NCBI GenBank assembly: GCA_020725865.1
Contig: DYEC01000023.1
Span: 1 to 64,000 of the forward strand
DNA length: 64,000 nt
Direction: 5' to 3'
From: Anaerolinea sp.
GTDB taxonomy: Bacteria > Chloroflexota > Anaerolineae > Anaerolineales > Anaerolineaceae
Below are positions 50,990 through 58,534 of this stretch, one piece after another. How positions within the stretch are numbered: the stretch's first letter is position 1; each line of letters opens with the position of its first letter. The translations under genes were made by a program, and so were the position numbers. Below the pieces are notes generated by a model. The model did no database searches and was not told where the DNA came from. It saw only the letters and a program-made list of their open reading frames with translations.

Positions 50990-51018
50990 TTGCCTCAATA
51001 CATTCACCGTGATACACT
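50990..51018 (+). promoter_or_regulatory. Promoter giving a leaderless message for the receiver-transposase-fold gene
   Basis: TTGCCT (50990-50995), a 17-bp spacer and TACACT (51013-51018). The predicted start point coincides with the ATG at 51025, and there is no Shine-Dalgarno. Confidence 0.6.
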
Positions 51019-51024
51019 TTAAAT

Positions 51025-53361
51025 ATGCCGAAGGGTGTTCTTGTTGCTACGCCTCATGCCACGTTTGGTGAACTGCTGCGTCTCAGCCTTGAAGAAAGCG
51101 GACGCTATGTAGTGCGTACGGTCACCACAGCTCAAGAGGTGCTGACAAATGGCTGCCGCAACGGCATTGAGCTGGTGATTTTGGACTCTGACCTTATGGA
51201 TGCTTCCGTTGTTGAGGTGGGTACCCGACTGCGGCAAAAAGACCCAACGCTTTGTCTGGTTGTTATTCCGCCCGAAAACAACCCGCGCCATCCGAAGCTG
51301 GCTGGTTTTATTGCGGATGGGTATCTCAGCCGGCCATTCTATACCCCTGTGCTGTTGGAAATGCTGGATGCCTTGCTTGATCCTGAGGATTCGGCGGTAT
51401 CTCGCTCCAATTCTTCGTTTTTACCCTCTGATCCTTCTGACCAGCTATCCTGGCTTCAAAACACGAACTTGGCAACGCAGTTTCTTGCCAGCCTGTTGCT
51501 GGAGACGTCCGCTCATGCTGCGCTGTTAATGCGCAATGATCAGGTTCTGACCCACGCCGGTCACCTGTCTCCCGAAGCTGTTCAGGAAGCATCCCGGATT
51601 CTGGCTCGATACTGGTCGAAAACGGCTCAGCGCGAACTGGCGCGTTTTTTGCGCACTGCCGGTGGTGAATACCTGCTGTATGCTGTTCCCATTCTTGGCA
51701 ATGTGATGCTGGGGATGCTTTTTGATACCACGATGCGGCTCACTCAGGCACGCGGGCAGTCTTTGAGGCTGGCACACGCTTTAGTCACTGAATCCCCTGA
51801 AGAAATGGCACAGCCTGCTTTGCAACCTGTGATTGAGCCGGCGGTTACCGGGGCACCCATAGCAGTAGAAAAACAAGCTCCGACTGAAATATCGCCATTT
51901 TTACCGGGGGAAGAAGCCGAGGAAACGCCGCCTCTTGCAATGGCGGAGACTTCCCCTGTTTTGGAAAAACCGATGTCCCAAACAGAAGAAACCGTTGAGT
52001 CTCCGCTGCAAACCTTGCGACGCTTATTGCAGAGCGAGGAAGATCAAACGGCAGTTGGCGGTTTTGAGCAGGTCTTGGAGCAAGCTGCAACGGCAGAACT
52101 GCCAGAGGGACAAAAATTGGATGTCGCTTTTGCCGAAAGTGAAGAAGATCAACCTTTTGAGCAGCCGGCCGAAACGGCGCTCTTGCTTACAGAAGATGTT
52201 CTTGAGGCGGAAGAGCCCCGCATAGGATTGCCAGATGTATCTGTACCGGATGAAGGGGAATGGACATTTGAGCGTATTGAACCCGAGATTCGGGAGCCGT
52301 CGTTAGAAGAATTGCTCGATTTAGATTGGGGGGAACTGGCAGAAGAACAACCGGAGAAACTGCCGGCAGAACCGGCGAAAGAACAGCCGGTTATGCCAAA
52401 AGACACTGAAGGACAGATTGAAAGTGAACAGCTGAGCGAAGAACTGCCCGAAACTGCCATCCTCTCGCCGCTTGAGCTGGAGGAGGAGAGTACAGTGGAG
52501 CCACCGCCCCTGCCAGCGGAATTCGGGAGCGTTTCTTCGGTGCCGCAACCATCCGCTTTTGCGGATGTAGAAAAATCGGAAGAAACCCACCCTGGTAAAG
52601 AGCTTGCTGAGGGAGACGAGGGTTTCTCCGAAGCGGATGTACAGCGGATTCTGGATATGCTTGCCGAGATGCCTTCACCTGAACCGCAAAGAGGCGAACG
52701 GGAAGAAACCGACCATCCCGCAGAGGACTGGGAGTTTCCTGCCGGTGAGATTACCTTCCCCTGGGAAGATACTGCTGCCAATCCAATTTCTACACCTGAC
52801 CCAGGTGCCACATTGCCGGTGACCGTTGCGGGCTTGCCGCCGGAGTCGGTGGAAATCACGCGTGCCATCGGCGTCACGCGGCCGGTTTTGCGGGCGCGCG
52901 ATGCCAGCGAAGATACCGTCCCGGTGGGGATACATCCTTCCGAACAGGGCAGTTTGCCTCCAATCCTGACACACGAGGAACCCGTTTTGCTTTACACCTG
53001 TGTGCTGGTTCCCCGACTGGCGCGATTTCCGCTCACCGGAAAACTGGCGCAATTGTTGACGCAGTGGATGGCTGAAATTTGCCAGTCCTTTGGCTGGCAG
53101 CTTGAGAACGTTTCTGTCTATGCTGAATATTTGCTGTGGACGGTGCGTCTGACGCCGAGTATTTCGCCGGGTAATGTGGTGCGCTTGATTCGTCAGTACA
53201 CCTCACAACGCATTTTCAACCAGTTCCCGAATGTGCACCAGGTGGTTTCGGGTTATGATTTTTGGGCACCCGGCTATTTGATTGTCCGCGGGTCTCAACC
53301 TCCCGCGATCAATGTGCTTACCGAGTTTATTGATACTGCACACCGCCGCCAGGGGAATTAA
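51025..53361 (+). CDS. Pseudo-receiver/Roadblock-like protein with dead IS200-type transposase fold
   Basis: A 778-residue protein with an unusual layout. Residues 1-120 are a receiver-like domain: Asp54 is in the phosphoacceptor position, but the acidic pair of the first strand is replaced (VATP) and the conserved Lys is Arg103. Residues about 145-255 resemble a Roadblock/LC7 or GAF-like fold. Residues about 255-640 are a Glu/Pro-rich disordered acidic linker. Residues about 655-775 match the single-strand transposase (Y1/IS200 TnpA) fold. In that part, PGNVVRLIRQYTSQRIFNQF and FWAPGYLIV align with its signature segments. The HUH histidines are gone (AEYLLWTV at 700-707) and the catalytic Tyr appears as Phe768. 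So it cannot be an active transposase. It may be a domesticated nucleic-acid-binding scaffold. polA follows 31 bp downstream. Confidence 0.75.
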   Translation: MPKGVLVATPHATFGELLRLSLEESGRYVVRTVTTAQEVLTNGCRNGIELVILDSDLMDASVVEVGTRLRQKDPTLCLVVIPPENNPRHPKLAGFIADGYLSRPFYTPVLLEMLDALLDPEDSAVSRSNSSFLPSDPSDQLSWLQNTNLATQFLASLLLETSAHAALLMRNDQVLTHAGHLSPEAVQEASRILARYWSKTAQRELARFLRTAGGEYLLYAVPILGNVMLGMLFDTTMRLTQARGQSLRLAHALVTESPEEMAQPALQPVIEPAVTGAPIAVEKQAPTEISPFLPGEEAEETPPLAMAETSPVLEKPMSQTEETVESPLQTLRRLLQSEEDQTAVGGFEQVLEQAATAELPEGQKLDVAFAESEEDQPFEQPAETALLLTEDVLEAEEPRIGLPDVSVPDEGEWTFERIEPEIREPSLEELLDLDWGELAEEQPEKLPAEPAKEQPVMPKDTEGQIESEQLSEELPETAILSPLELEEESTVEPPPLPAEFGSVSSVPQPSAFADVEKSEETHPGKELAEGDEGFSEADVQRILDMLAEMPSPEPQRGEREETDHPAEDWEFPAGEITFPWEDTAANPISTPDPGATLPVTVAGLPPESVEITRAIGVTRPVLRARDASEDTVPVGIHPSEQGSLPPILTHEEPVLLYTCVLVPRLARFPLTGKLAQLLTQWMAEICQSFGWQLENVSVYAEYLLWTVRLTPSISPGNVVRLIRQYTSQRIFNQFPNVHQVVSGYDFWAPGYLIVRGSQPPAINVLTEFIDTAHRRQGN

Positions 53362-53392: not shown

Positions 53393-56176
53393 ATGCCACC
53401 TACACTATACCTGATTGATGGTCACGCCCTTGTGTACCGCACATACTTTGCCTTGATGACGGCTGGCGGCGACCGTTTCCGCACCCGCAACGGTGAGCCG
53501 ACTGCCGGCAGTTATGGCTTTGCCAGCGTGTTGCTGCGGCTGCTGGAGCAGGATAAGCCAGAATATCTGGCGGTTGCATTTGATACGGGCAAGACCTTTC
53601 GCAACGAGATATATTCGGCGTATAAAGCCACTCGTGCCAAGATGCCTGATGACCTGCGTCCGCAGGTTGACCGCATTCGCAGTTTGGTGGATGCTTTTGG
53701 TATCCCCCGTTTGGAGATTGAAGGCTTTGAGGCGGATGATGTGCTGGGCAGTGTAACCCATCAGGCTGTGGCACAAGGAATGGGCGTCAAGATTATCACC
53801 GGTGACCGCGATCTGCTTCAGCTTGTCAGCCCACGGGTGATTGTAAATCTGGCGGGCAGCAAGCTTTCGGAGGCAAAGGACTATACGCCTGAGGAAGTCA
53901 CCGCATATATGGGAGTTCCGCCGGAGCAAATTGTGGATTATAAGGCACTGGTGGGTGATCCTTCGGATAATATTCCCGGTGTCCCTGGGGTGGGTGAAAA
54001 GACTGCGCTTGCACTTCTCCATCAGTACCCCACACTGGAGGCGATTTACGCCCACCTGGATGAAATACCCCAGAAAGTGCGCACAAAGCTGGAAAATGGC
54101 AAAGAGTCGGCGTTCATGAGCCGTACGCTGGCGACCATTCGTACCGATGTACCGGTTGTTTTGGAGCTGGAAAAAGCCCGTGTGCAATATGCTGCCTTCC
54201 CCGCAGTGGAAGAATTGTTCCGCGAGCTTGAGTTCCGCTCCCTGATGGGGCGTTTGCAGAACCTCTCTAAATCGGCAGTCGGACAGGAATCGGCAACCAC
54301 TGGAGAGCAATTATCGTTATTTGGTCAGCCGGTTGTGCGCATTGGACAGCCTGCCGAACATCGTTCGCGGGTGCAGATGGTCAATACCCCACAGGCACTG
54401 TCAGAATTGCGGGAGAAACTGGAACGTGCTACCGAGATCGCCTTCGATACCGAAACCACCGCCACCGACCCACTGCGTGCCAGTCTGGTCGGCATCTCCA
54501 TAGCTGTTCAACCTGGCGAAGGATACTACATCCCGCTGGGGCATCGCGCGGGTGAACAGCTGCCGGTGCAAACGGTGATTGAGGCATTGACGCCAGCTTT
54601 CACTGACCCGCGTAAACCAAAGATCGGCCAGAACCTTAAGTATGATTATCTCATGCTGGCGCAGTATGGGTTGCGACCCACACCGCTGGCATTTGATACC
54701 ATGATTGCAGAGTGGTTGATTGACCCCGCTTCGCGCAATTTGGGGTTGAAGGAAATGGCAGAGGCTTACCTGAATGAGCGCATGACGCACATTGAGGAGC
54801 TGATTGGCAAAGGCAAGAATCAGATCAGTATGGCGGATGTAGCGGCAGAGACGGCGGCGGCGTATGCTGTCGCCGATGCTGAGGTGACACTGCGGCTCAA
54901 ACCGTTGTTGCAAGAACGGATGCAGCAGGTTAATGCCATCCGGCTATTCGACGAACTGGAAATGCCGCTTGTGCCGGTTTTGGCTGCGATGGAAGAGGTT
55001 GGCGTTGCGCTGGACGTGCCGTTCTTTCAGCGCATGTCTGAAGAACTGAAGGAGCGCATGGGTGAAATAGAGCATCAGGTCTGCGAGATGGTTGGTTACA
55101 CCTTTAACCTGAATTCAACCCAGCAACTTTCCAAAGCCTTGTTTGAGAAACTGCACTTAAGCCCGCCCGACCGGCGCTGGCGGACGACCAGCGGACATTT
55201 TTCGACTTCTGCCGAGGTGCTGGAAGAACTGCGCGGCGAGCACCCGGTGGTTGACCTGATTTTGGAGTACCGCGAGTTTGCCAAGCTGAAATCTACATAT
55301 GTGGATGCTTTGCCGGCGCAGATTAATCCCCGCACCGGGCGTGTGCATACTTCGTTCAACCAAACCGGCTCGGTTACCGGACGGCTGGCTTCTTCCGAAC
55401 CCAACCTGCAAAACATCCCCACCCGTACCGAGCTGGGGCATCGGGTGCGCTGCGGTTTTGTTGCCAGCCCGGGGATGATGTTGCTTTCGGTGGATTATTC
55501 ACAGATTGAATTACGAATCGTTGCGCACATGTCGGGGGATGAGGCAATGCTGGCGGCTTTCCGTGCCGGGCAGGATATTCATGCTGCCACCGCAGCGGCG
55601 ATTTACCGTATCCCGATTGATCAGGTCAGCAAGGAACAGCGCCGTCATGCTAAGGCGATCAATTTTGGACTGATTTATGGGATGTCGGCTTTTGGTCTTT
55701 ACCGCACTACCGATTTGACGCTGGCGGAAGCGGAAAATTTCGTCAAAGCGTATTTCCAGCAGTTCCCGGGCGTCAAGCGTTATCTGGACGGCATTCGTAC
55801 GCTGGCTGCCCGTCAGGGTTACGTGGAGACGCTGCTGGGTCGCCGGCGTTATTTTCCCAATCTGCGCAATCCGGTCAACCAGGCAACGCGCGCCCGCGAG
55901 GAGCGCGAAGCAATCAACGCCCCTATTCAGGGCAGCGCGGCAGATATTATGAAGCTGGCAATGATTCGTCTGCCGGAGGCGCTGCGAACCTCTGGGTTGC
56001 GGGCGCGCATATTACTTCAGGTACATGATGAGTTATTACTGGAGTGTCCGCAAGAGGAAATTGCCTCAACTGCTCACGTGGTGCAGAACGTGATGGAAAA
56101 CGCCTATGAACTATCTATCCCTTTATTAACTGAAGCCCGCCAAGGAAAAAACTGGGGTGAGCTTCAACCATTGTAG
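53393..56176 (+). CDS. polA: DNA polymerase I
   Basis: A 927-residue family A polymerase with all three activities. The 5'-3' exonuclease opens with LYLIDGHALVYRTYFALM and GFEADDVLGS. The 3'-5' proofreading domain keeps its catalytic acids: FDTETT, GQNLKYDYLML and YAVADAEVTL. The polymerase domain has DYSQIELRI (motif A), RRHAKAINFGLIYG (motif B) and QVHDELLLE (motif C). It functions in Okazaki-fragment maturation and repair. The frame runs back into the previous gene; ATG 53393 is chosen for the family-like N-terminus. The TPR gene starts 18 bp later. Confidence 0.97.
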   Translation: MPPTLYLIDGHALVYRTYFALMTAGGDRFRTRNGEPTAGSYGFASVLLRLLEQDKPEYLAVAFDTGKTFRNEIYSAYKATRAKMPDDLRPQVDRIRSLVDAFGIPRLEIEGFEADDVLGSVTHQAVAQGMGVKIITGDRDLLQLVSPRVIVNLAGSKLSEAKDYTPEEVTAYMGVPPEQIVDYKALVGDPSDNIPGVPGVGEKTALALLHQYPTLEAIYAHLDEIPQKVRTKLENGKESAFMSRTLATIRTDVPVVLELEKARVQYAAFPAVEELFRELEFRSLMGRLQNLSKSAVGQESATTGEQLSLFGQPVVRIGQPAEHRSRVQMVNTPQALSELREKLERATEIAFDTETTATDPLRASLVGISIAVQPGEGYYIPLGHRAGEQLPVQTVIEALTPAFTDPRKPKIGQNLKYDYLMLAQYGLRPTPLAFDTMIAEWLIDPASRNLGLKEMAEAYLNERMTHIEELIGKGKNQISMADVAAETAAAYAVADAEVTLRLKPLLQERMQQVNAIRLFDELEMPLVPVLAAMEEVGVALDVPFFQRMSEELKERMGEIEHQVCEMVGYTFNLNSTQQLSKALFEKLHLSPPDRRWRTTSGHFSTSAEVLEELRGEHPVVDLILEYREFAKLKSTYVDALPAQINPRTGRVHTSFNQTGSVTGRLASSEPNLQNIPTRTELGHRVRCGFVASPGMMLLSVDYSQIELRIVAHMSGDEAMLAAFRAGQDIHAATAAAIYRIPIDQVSKEQRRHAKAINFGLIYGMSAFGLYRTTDLTLAEAENFVKAYFQQFPGVKRYLDGIRTLAARQGYVETLLGRRRYFPNLRNPVNQATRAREEREAINAPIQGSAADIMKLAMIRLPEALRTSGLRARILLQVHDELLLECPQEEIASTAHVVQNVMENAYELSIPLLTEARQGKNWGELQPL

Positions 56177-56194: not shown

Positions 56195-58534
56195 ATGATG
56201 TCCGGTGATCAACAGCGGTTTCAACAGGCCATGAGTCAGGGGCATTCTGCCGCCTGGGATCAGTTGTGGCAGCAGGCGGCAGATTATTACCGTCAGGCGC
56301 TGACGGAGATTCCAGACCACCCGCTGGCACTGACCAGTCTGGGGCTGGCTTTGTTTGAGCTTAAAAATTATCAGGAAGCGCTGCATTGTTATCAGAAAGC
56401 GGCACAAATCACGCCGGACGATCCGATTCCGGTAGAGAAGATTGCCCGGATTTGTGAACTTCAGGAAAAGACGACGGATGCTATACGATTTTATTTGCAG
56501 TCCGCAGAACTGAACCTGAAAGCTCGCGATGTTGAAAAAGCTATTCAGAACTGGGTTAAGGTCGTACACCTCCAGCCGACGAATATCGTGGCGCGCAGCC
56601 GTCTGGCAATTGTGTTTGAGCGAATCGGCCGCAAGATGGACGCAATTTCCGAATATCTCTCTATTGCCAGTTTGTTGCAGCAAACTGACGAAATTCAGAA
56701 GGCTTTGCAAGCGGTTGAGCGCGCGTTGCAAATCATGCCGGAGCATGTTGAGGCACAACAGGCATTGACCATGCTCCATAGCAATCAGAAGTTGCCCCCA
56801 CCTGGTAAACCGCGTTCGCCGAGCGGGCAGTTGCGACCGCTGGAACCACAGCCCGTAACCAAGCCCGGTACACCTCAAAAAGAAGAGATGGACCCGCTTG
56901 CTGAAGGACGCCATAAGGCGATGGAAGAGCTGGCTGCATTCCTCTTTGAAGAGAGTGAAATAGAAGGGCGTAATGGTCAGGTAGCTCGGCGCGGGCTTTC
57001 TGATCTGACCCGTGGAACCGGCAGCCTTATTCCCCGCCCGCAGGTAGACCGCACACGGCTTATGTTGTATATTGGTGAAGCCATTGAGGCTCAGATACAG
57101 GGGAAGGACGAACATGCAGCCAGCAACCTGGAGCGTGCCATTGAGAATGGCTTGGATCTTGCGGCTGCTTATTACAATCTCGGCTTGCTTCAAGCTAATG
57201 CCAGTTACTCGAATGCCATTCGCAATTTGCAACGTTCGGTAAAAAACCCGAAGTATGCTTTGCCTTCCTACCTGCTGCTGGGAAGGATTTACGAGGTTCA
57301 GGGTGATTATTCTAAGGCTGCCACGTCATATTTGCAGGCGTTATGTCTGGCAGATGTTGAAACGGCACCGAAAACCCAGTCAGAAGATATTCGGATGCTG
57401 TATGAGCCGATTATCGAGCAATACACCCAGCAAGCGGACACAAATTTTCTCAAGAAACTTTGCCAGAATGTTTTCCTTCATCTCAATCGTGCCGACTGGC
57501 GGCGCTATCTCGATTCGGTGCGTCAGCAGGCTGTATCTGAAACCGAAAATGGTCAGCCAGTCCCGTTGATTGAACTATTGATGGAAACCAGTGGCAGCGA
57601 AGTTGTCGAAAGTATGGGGCGCATTCGCGAACTGATCAGACAAAAGAAATACCGTTCCGCCATGGAAGAAGCGTACAGCGCATTGCAGTCTGCCCCTTCC
57701 TATCTGCCACTGCATGTTCAGATGGGGGAAATCCTGCTCCAGCAAGGGCGCAATCAGGAGGCGGTCAGCAAGTTCTTGCTGGTTGCAGAGCTGTACAATT
57801 TACGCGGTGAGACTGCTCAGGCAATACGGTTATTGAACCGTGCTGTCAAATTGATGCCGATGGACATGGGATTACGCACGCGTTTGATTGAATTACTGAA
57901 GGCTTCTTCACAGATTGATGAGGCAGTCGGGCAATATGTTGAATTAGCCAATGTCCATTATCAACTAGCTGAATTGGATGCAGCCCGTCAGACTTATATG
58001 GCTGCCTTGCATCTGGCGCAAAAAGCGCCGACGGATCGTTCCTGGAATGTACAGATCCTGTACAAGATCGCCGACATTGACATGCAGCGCCTGAACTGGC
58101 GTCAGGCGATCCGCGTCTTTGAGCAGATTCGCACACTGGAGCCGGAGGATTTTAAAGCGCGCTCTTCGCTGGTTGAGTTGAATTTTCGCTTGGGGCAGGA
58201 TGCTGCTGCGCTTGCAGAAGTGGATGGCTTTGTTGCACTGCTGGAGAACAGCGGTAAGGCTGCGAAGGCGGTTGATTTTCTGAAAAAATTGATCGCTGAA
58301 AAACCCGATCGCGTGGACCTGCGCAAGCGGCTTGCAGATTTATACATCCGCCACAGACGGGTGAATGAGGCGGTTGAACAGCTTGATTGGATTGCCAACC
58401 GCCTGCTGGATGCAAAGAATGTACGCGGTGCGATGAACGTTTTACAGGCGATTATCGAACTTAACCCGCCAGAGGTTGCTTCTTATCGAGAGGCTTTGCA
58501 AAAACTGAAAAACCAACCGGCACGCGATATTTGA
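56195..58534 (+). CDS. Tetratricopeptide-repeat protein
   Basis: A 779-residue, all-helical cytoplasmic protein with TPR arrays at both ends (about 20-200 and 290-780). A basic Pro-rich hinge lies between them (about 195-230). Typical repeats include PLALTSLGLALFELKNYQEA and DLAAAYYNLGLLQANASYS. TPR arrays bind protein partners. No enzymatic domain is seen. The stop overlaps the sigma-factor start by TTGA, which suggests a scaffold role linked to that sigma factor. Confidence 0.85.
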   Translation: MMSGDQQRFQQAMSQGHSAAWDQLWQQAADYYRQALTEIPDHPLALTSLGLALFELKNYQEALHCYQKAAQITPDDPIPVEKIARICELQEKTTDAIRFYLQSAELNLKARDVEKAIQNWVKVVHLQPTNIVARSRLAIVFERIGRKMDAISEYLSIASLLQQTDEIQKALQAVERALQIMPEHVEAQQALTMLHSNQKLPPPGKPRSPSGQLRPLEPQPVTKPGTPQKEEMDPLAEGRHKAMEELAAFLFEESEIEGRNGQVARRGLSDLTRGTGSLIPRPQVDRTRLMLYIGEAIEAQIQGKDEHAASNLERAIENGLDLAAAYYNLGLLQANASYSNAIRNLQRSVKNPKYALPSYLLLGRIYEVQGDYSKAATSYLQALCLADVETAPKTQSEDIRMLYEPIIEQYTQQADTNFLKKLCQNVFLHLNRADWRRYLDSVRQQAVSETENGQPVPLIELLMETSGSEVVESMGRIRELIRQKKYRSAMEEAYSALQSAPSYLPLHVQMGEILLQQGRNQEAVSKFLLVAELYNLRGETAQAIRLLNRAVKLMPMDMGLRTRLIELLKASSQIDEAVGQYVELANVHYQLAELDAARQTYMAALHLAQKAPTDRSWNVQILYKIADIDMQRLNWRQAIRVFEQIRTLEPEDFKARSSLVELNFRLGQDAAALAEVDGFVALLENSGKAAKAVDFLKKLIAEKPDRVDLRKRLADLYIRHRRVNEAVEQLDWIANRLLDAKNVRGAMNVLQAIIELNPPEVASYREALQKLKNQPARDI

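Follow-up and report, generated by a model that had tools for sequence, protein, structure and literature searches.

The gene that precedes polA in the window (the whole stretch of 64,000 nucleotides of Anaerolinea sp. DNA that was analysed) encodes a multidomain protein whose C-terminal domain is a true homologue of the transposase TnpA and, as judged from its residues, a catalytically dead one. The gene is best filed as a case of transposase domestication and not as a transposase, and the data fit one old domestication event leading to a non-catalytic adaptor linked to DNA polymerase I (Pol I). An automatic 'transposase' label can mask a conserved chromosomal gene. The reading frame was recovered exactly, from the ATG at 51025 to the stop codon ending at 53361, and the following features were assigned to it and its surroundings.

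50990..51018, + strand: leaderless-type promoter, TTGCCT as the −35 (50990-50995), 17-nt spacer, second hexamer at 51013-51018
51025..53361, + strand: whole gene, 778 aa, in the order degenerate receiver, Roadblock, acidic linker, dead Y1
51025..51390, + strand: degenerate receiver, aa 1-122, PF00072 match below cut-off, without the acidic pair and the Lys, Asp54 kept
51451..51792, + strand: Roadblock/MglB-like domain, approximately aa 143-256, from a profile against MglB and the topology of the model
51811..52977, + strand: acidic linker, aa 263-651, net charge −73
52648..52686, + strand: linear linker motif, aa 542-554 (ILDMLAEMPSPEP; consensus hLxDhPxP), conserved across linkers
52987..53355, + strand: Y1/TnpA-like domain without the catalytic residues, aa 655-777, from Pfam, profile and predicted fold
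53128..53136, + strand: lost HUH position, Y702-L703-L704, from alignment to TnpA
53326..53328, + strand: position of the catalytic tyrosine, now Phe768, from alignment to TnpA
53393..56176, + strand: polA, DNA polymerase I, 927 aa, Pfam DNA_pol_A at E 1e-152, both exonuclease domains
56195..58534, + strand: TPR-repeat protein, 779 aa, 3' of polA, from Pfam TPR

The C-terminal Y1 domain

The Pfam Y1_Tnp model matched aa 656-767 with 44.5 bits (E 2e-11, cut-off 23), and the NCBIfam IS200 transposase model scored 47.9 bits on the window protein, below its cut-off of 55. A profile built from 39 Y1 domains of the family matched 8 distinct sequences in the PDB, all of them named transposases, with 2ec2 at E 2.6e-20 and IS608 at E of about 1e-9. 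The predicted structure of the domain (mean pLDDT 87.7) matched ISDra2 TnpA in Foldseek at E 8.6e-10 and was aligned with 2fyx over 124 residues at 2.3 Å with a Z score of 15.9; of the rows available for the structure predictions, 57 of 81 and 51 of 77 were used. The profile search and the structure prediction called for in the original prediction therefore both returned the Y1 fold.

In the profile alignment the H-I-H of TnpA corresponds to Y-L-Q of the family consensus. The window protein carries Y702 and L704 at the HUH positions, F768 in place of the catalytic tyrosine and A772 in place of the metal-site Gln four residues further on. At these sites the standalone Y1 proteins encoded in relative genomes carry H, H, Y and Q in 100, 89, 89 and 100 % of cases (n = 9; four divergent or contig-cut ones of the 13 short Y1 proteins were dropped from this comparison and from that of the basic columns). 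The proposed loss of the two histidines and the tyrosine from an otherwise recognisable Y1 fold was thus confirmed for the window protein.

An intact HxH was present in 0 of 138 family rows (39, 80 and 19 rows of overlapping sets, the 19 'distant' rows including five of the same order, L135-L139, with polA next in four of the five). No homologue keeping HUH was therefore found among these rows, and on this count an active transposase with an altered motif was rejected. Tyr stands at the catalytic position in 10 of 39, 49 of 80 and 5 of the 19 rows of the family, in no case together with HxH, and in one of 14 rows from other families; the residue was either lost repeatedly or else regained. Two small standalone Y1 proteins with an imperfect HUH were also seen (L238 with YVH, L232 with HVR), possibly dead or dying copies in the order.

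The sequence and fold of the C-terminal domain are homologous to those of IS200/IS605 TnpA (IS608, ISDra2), but the family differs from these transposases in having no HUH, a replaced metal-site Gln and often Phe instead of Tyr. Also unlike them, the window gene is fused to signalling domains, lies beside polA and is the only Y1_Tnp match in its genome, no further one being present at E 0.001; the single match and the conserved place beside polA are not features of a mobile element. TnpA_REP/RAYT proteins resemble the family as a chromosomal domestication of the Y1 fold. Passages of PMC8266576 and PMC6006769 describe TnpA_REP as a protein with intact HuH and Tyr that cleaves REP hairpins, whereas the window family has lost HUH. 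The prokaryotic Y1 domestication treated in these papers retains its active site; here the HUH is gone and the Y1 domain is the most constrained part of the protein.

This constraint was estimated from 14 close pairs, in which median omega was 0.058 in the Y1 domain as against 0.129 in the N-terminal part and 0.176 in the linker (dS in the Y1 domain was 0.6-1.5, near saturation at the top, pairs of higher dS being skipped). Loss of HUH from a domain that is nevertheless tightly conserved suggests its reuse as a binding part. The domestication of a Y1 fold put forward in the original prediction is upheld by the loss of HUH, the homology, the constraint and the family-wide conservation. The Pfam label of the domain is that of a transposase, as would be expected if a recently decayed insertion sequence had been joined to a signalling gene by chance, giving an artefact or pseudogene. 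This origin is hardly credible, since omega is low, the gene is conserved in the order and beyond, and its genome holds no second Y1_Tnp match; the conservation across loci together with the low omega likewise argues against recent decay of an insertion sequence.

An 81-row tree (136 columns, some long branches, rooted at the midpoint with no true outgroup) parted the fused copies from 11 standalone Y1 proteins by a branch with 100/99 support, and two short contig-cut copies (L250, L254) grouped with the fused ones. A single capture of the Y1 domain appears from this alignment to be well supported, if not proved. Two other assignments were considered and rejected: a defence system, with no PADLOC match at 0.01, and a phage protein, the three PHROG matches being to two transposase families and to one family with unknown function over the receiver.

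Spread of the family and association with polA

The count of homologues and their neighbours across Chloroflexota, another check named in the original prediction, showed a family that spans Anaerolineae and lies mostly beside polA within the order. Three sets of loci were used; they have genomes in common, and a count in one is therefore not independent of the others. The order set (L031-L070 and the window) comprises 40 loci chosen from the listed matches, with weak and several contig-edge matches left out, the class set (L101-L140) 40 loci chosen from the listed matches, and the GTDB set (L141-L220) the 80 loci kept from 172 related stretches that were found on GTDB contigs with one peptide pattern (DFWAPGYL), a procedure that favours close members. 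Alignment A1 contained 39 of 40 domains, A2 34 of 35 (the 35 being those of the 41 loci with a full N-terminal match, after two more had been dropped for offset starts) and A3 32 of 34.

Of 101 relative genomes, 71 had some match, a figure that also covers matches to the receiver alone and standalone transposases, and both halves of the gene were detected by BLAST at 38 of the 41 order loci, including the window. The receiver, Roadblock and Y1 domains occur together at 78 of the 80 GTDB loci, and the other two begin at contig edges. The gene is carried by the named strains Longilinea arvoryzae KOME-1 and Levilinea saccharolytica KIBI-1. All 80 kept GTDB loci stand under Chloroflexota names, two of them outside Anaerolineae (Candidatus Aquidulcis, L155, and Herpetosiphon, L213), and these two records may be mislabelled MAGs. 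In the part of the Y1 domain that was compared, the L213 protein shares 95 % identity with that of L181, and it is close to Anaerolineales proteins, so the name Herpetosiphon may be wrong.

In a class-wide draw the middle domain was matched in 87 of 298 genomes, and in a phylum draw in 25 of 301, of which 24 belong to the class and one does not (L227, a receiver-Roadblock protein in which acidic residues are present by eye). Several class-wide proteins have the order receiver-linker-Roadblock-Y1, as opposed to receiver-Roadblock-linker-Y1 in the order of the window, and others have no Y1 match. The linker precedes the Roadblock domain in L102, L104, L106, L107 and L140, which belong to other families. 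At L118, L119 and L134 (another family) the Y1-less middle-domain genes lie 3' of a conserved gene that we take to be anti-sigma-like (…RDLLS.Y.DGEV), and a small conserved ORF is found opposite the Y1-less gene.

The window gene is flanked by a glycosyltransferase gene and polA, which starts at 53393, 31 nt past the stop codon. Of the 40 order loci with a downstream gene, the window included, 38 have a co-directional polA as that gene, so the placement of the gene directly before polA holds for the order as well as for the window; the most frequent neighbour on the upstream side is shared by 8 of the 40. At the GTDB loci the polA start lies within 400 nt in 69 of 80 and at 0.55-1.3 kb in three more (L204, L155, L189). 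In the remaining eight no polA was seen within the stretch, which in one case is too short to show it; in three of the eight (L150, L151, L153) the opposite-strand neighbour is presumably radA, a DNA-repair gene. A same-strand TPR homologue follows polA in 59 of the 61 GTDB loci that have polA and more than 4.5 kb of room.

Outside the order, 6 of the 14 Y1-bearing loci that were fetched from other families have polA as the next gene (L102, L104, L106, L107, L116, L140), some of the loci without it sitting near contig ends. It is also next in 4 of 21 fetched loci with no Y1 match (L108, L112, L122 and, from within the order, L121). Linkage to polA is therefore strong among members of the order and partial elsewhere.

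The receiver and Roadblock head, the linker and the promoter

The Response_reg model (PF00072) matched aa 5-114 of the window protein with 27.0 bits, under its cut-off of 30.2, and among ten homologues it scored above the cut-off in three and gave no match at 0.1 in two. The model of the receiver has pLDDT above 90 over most of the domain, and a Foldseek search with the receiver and Roadblock domains jointly returned receiver chains among its matches, with low whole-model scores. T9-P10 replace the acidic pair and R103 stands at the position of the lysine. The original description of the receiver as lacking both is correct for the window protein, but the loss of the lysine does not extend to the family: two alignments have Lys103 in 18 of their 34 rows and 46 of their 51 rows, respectively, which makes the Arg of the window exceptional. 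At the first position of the acidic pair an acid was found in 3 of the 34 rows and in none of the 51. The acceptor Asp54, which the original prediction did not mention, is nearly invariant (34 of 34 rows, and 49 of 51 with Glu in the other two). Atypical (pseudo-)receiver proteins exist as a class and share with this family a receiver fold without the acidic pair; the family differs from them in its nearly invariant acceptor Asp and in having a dead transposase fold as output.

Pfam Robl_LC7 had no match in the window protein, and aa 143-256 or thereabouts had no credible Pfam match. A profile of 32 orthologous middle domains nevertheless matched MglB structures at E 2.8e-6 and the model of the domain shows a helix, two strands, a helix, three strands and a helix, which bears out the Roadblock-like assignment. 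R243 is invariant in both alignments and R207 in one of them, the other having it in 47 of 51 rows and Lys in the rest. The profile match and the topology make the middle domain akin to MglB and Roadblock-LC7 proteins; in contrast to MglB, it sits between a degenerate receiver and a Y1 domain, and the flanking genes in the window include no MglA-type GTPase. The genome of the window also encodes a Robl_LC7 protein (L260) and a small GTPase-like ORF (L258:1441-2028; 21.8 bits, below the Roc cut-off of 27). This ORF, whose neighbour we take to be a PATAN/DUF4388 protein, is by its sequence a possible candidate for the partner of the Roadblock domain.

The linker of the window protein is 389 aa long, so that the proposed acidic chain of about 385 residues was right in its length and overall acidity and wrong in taking every residue as acidic. 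The hLxDhPxP motif was found in 74 of the 79 linkers from 78 GTDB loci and the window, and in 21 of 38 of the more diverse order set, as compared with 1.7 % of shuffled linkers. Ahead of the Y1 domain, SRESSPAV and GELDETRPHSITEVAGR recur in many members of the GTDB set (e.g. L178, L202, L207), and LTQEEISAMFAQTAAEPEPAPA occurs at least three times, spaced 35 residues apart, in the linker of the orthologue L036:5247-8135.

The −10 of the window gene is of the extended type, TGaTACACT, with TACACT followed by 6 nt and the ATG. TGnTAnACT at 3-12 nt before the start codon was found in 30 of 39 and 68 of 75 orthologue start regions (98 of 114 overall), scanned from −120 to +110 of the longest ORF, and a CTTG −35 in 24 and 63 of them, respectively. 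The same rule matched none of 40 polA starts and one of 188 other ORFs in the neighbourhood. Alignment of the 98 regions on the −10 showed CTTGCYT and GTGATAMACTT and little else conserved, and the exact promoter pattern has one match in the 3.12-Mb genome of the window. A generic promoter scan missed the window promoter, which has 8 of 12 matches (counted by eye) with the limit set at 9. The leaderless-type promoter proposed for the gene is supported by the conservation of its −10 element, and we infer from the sequence that the transcript is probably leaderless.

The retained Asp54 in an N-terminal receiver and the strongly conserved promoter before the gene would be in keeping with a response-regulator-like transcription factor that uses the dead Y1 domain as its DNA-binding output on its own operon or on others. 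Such a factor appears improbable, as the acidic pair and the switch residue are lost and the 98 aligned regions have no other conserved column, a comparison that would miss an operator at variable distance; a linker this long is also unusual for response-regulator transcription factors. The leaderless-type start of the operon would suit instead a protein that binds folded RNA, namely a transcript hairpin, and regulates the mRNA of the polA operon. PMC8266576 reports that Y1 domains recognise hairpins, and we would still give such an RNA-binding role only a faint chance.

Possible role beside DNA polymerase I

The preferred reading is that of an adaptor. The gene product would be non-catalytic and most likely made together with DNA polymerase I. 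Its TnpA (Y1) domain would have been captured early in the history of Anaerolineae and, having lost HUH and the metal site, may have been retained as a binding module. The degenerate receiver and the Roadblock domain would probably provide dimerisation and input, the latter possibly from a small Ras-like GTPase, and the flexible acidic linker would tether the Y1 domain, with the proline motif as a putative docking site. The Y1 domain might, like its IS608/ISDra2 relatives, recognise folded or fork-like ssDNA of the lagging strand but leave it uncut, and Pol I would thereby be recruited or restrained in Okazaki-fragment processing or gap repair.

That the Y1 domain reads such DNA uncut and recruits or restrains Pol I is, by analogy with these relatives, a real possibility that falls short of being probable. 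The presence of a dead Y1 domain next to polA through the order is consistent with an adaptor that reads DNA structure during lagging-strand or gap processing. For IS608 TnpA, an interaction with the beta clamp, affinity for fork-like DNA and a preference for lagging-strand ssDNA are described in passages of PMC5371812 and PMC6006769. If Pol I is indeed what it acts on, the protein would count as a replication or repair factor specific to this clade and as an example of a transposon captured by the replication machinery.

The charge of the domain speaks against the reading of ssDNA structure. In the order the Y1 domain has a median net charge of +2 to +3, and in the 14 rows of other families one of −6, as compared with +7 for standalone Y1 proteins (11 proteins, up to 150 aa) or +4 for nine of them when only the domain is counted. 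Four of the seven K/R columns of TnpA are kept (664, 723, 738, 773) and three are lost (666, 685, 749). Eleven columns of the Y1 domain have K/R in more than 60 % of family rows, and the window protein has K/R at only five of these (664, 720, 723, 729, 775). It is because of this low or negative charge and the five basic columns out of eleven that the binding of structured DNA was held below the level of the probable, and that a different role of the domain was taken as possible, if rather doubtful: a protein-protein or dimerisation module in a Roadblock/Ras-GTPase scaffold that binds no nucleic acid, with polA as a co-regulated gene or a partner. Besides the weak or negative charge, this scaffold would account for the MglB-related Roadblock domain, for the presence of the GTPase-like ORF and the Robl_LC7 protein in the genome and for the Y1-less versions that adjoin polA too, and it is opposed by the conservation of basic columns in the family and by the polA association across the order.

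The Y1-less versions beside polA, together with the occurrence of polA next to only 6 of the 14 Y1-bearing loci elsewhere, also speak against a Pol I adaptor, as do the eight GTDB loci where polA is missing from the stretch and the lack of a QLxLF clamp motif in the family proteins, and adjacency in an operon is no proof of physical contact with Pol I. An adaptor function spread through much of the class, in which the dead Y1 domain would read lagging-strand structure and couple it through the Roadblock/receiver head to the Pol I of the leaderless operon, is graded as rather unlikely.

No description of a receiver-Roadblock-Y1 fusion was recognised in the open-licence literature, covered mostly at the level of titles and abstracts; the Y1 entry of PMC8756737 lies in a nirS neighbourhood. 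The QLxLF clamp motif was absent from all 79 family proteins checked. The PolA of the window (53393-56176) holds QLSLF, which resembles the beta-clamp consensus, between its two exonuclease domains, and QL[SDN]LF occurs in 19 of the 40 polA ORFs of the order set.
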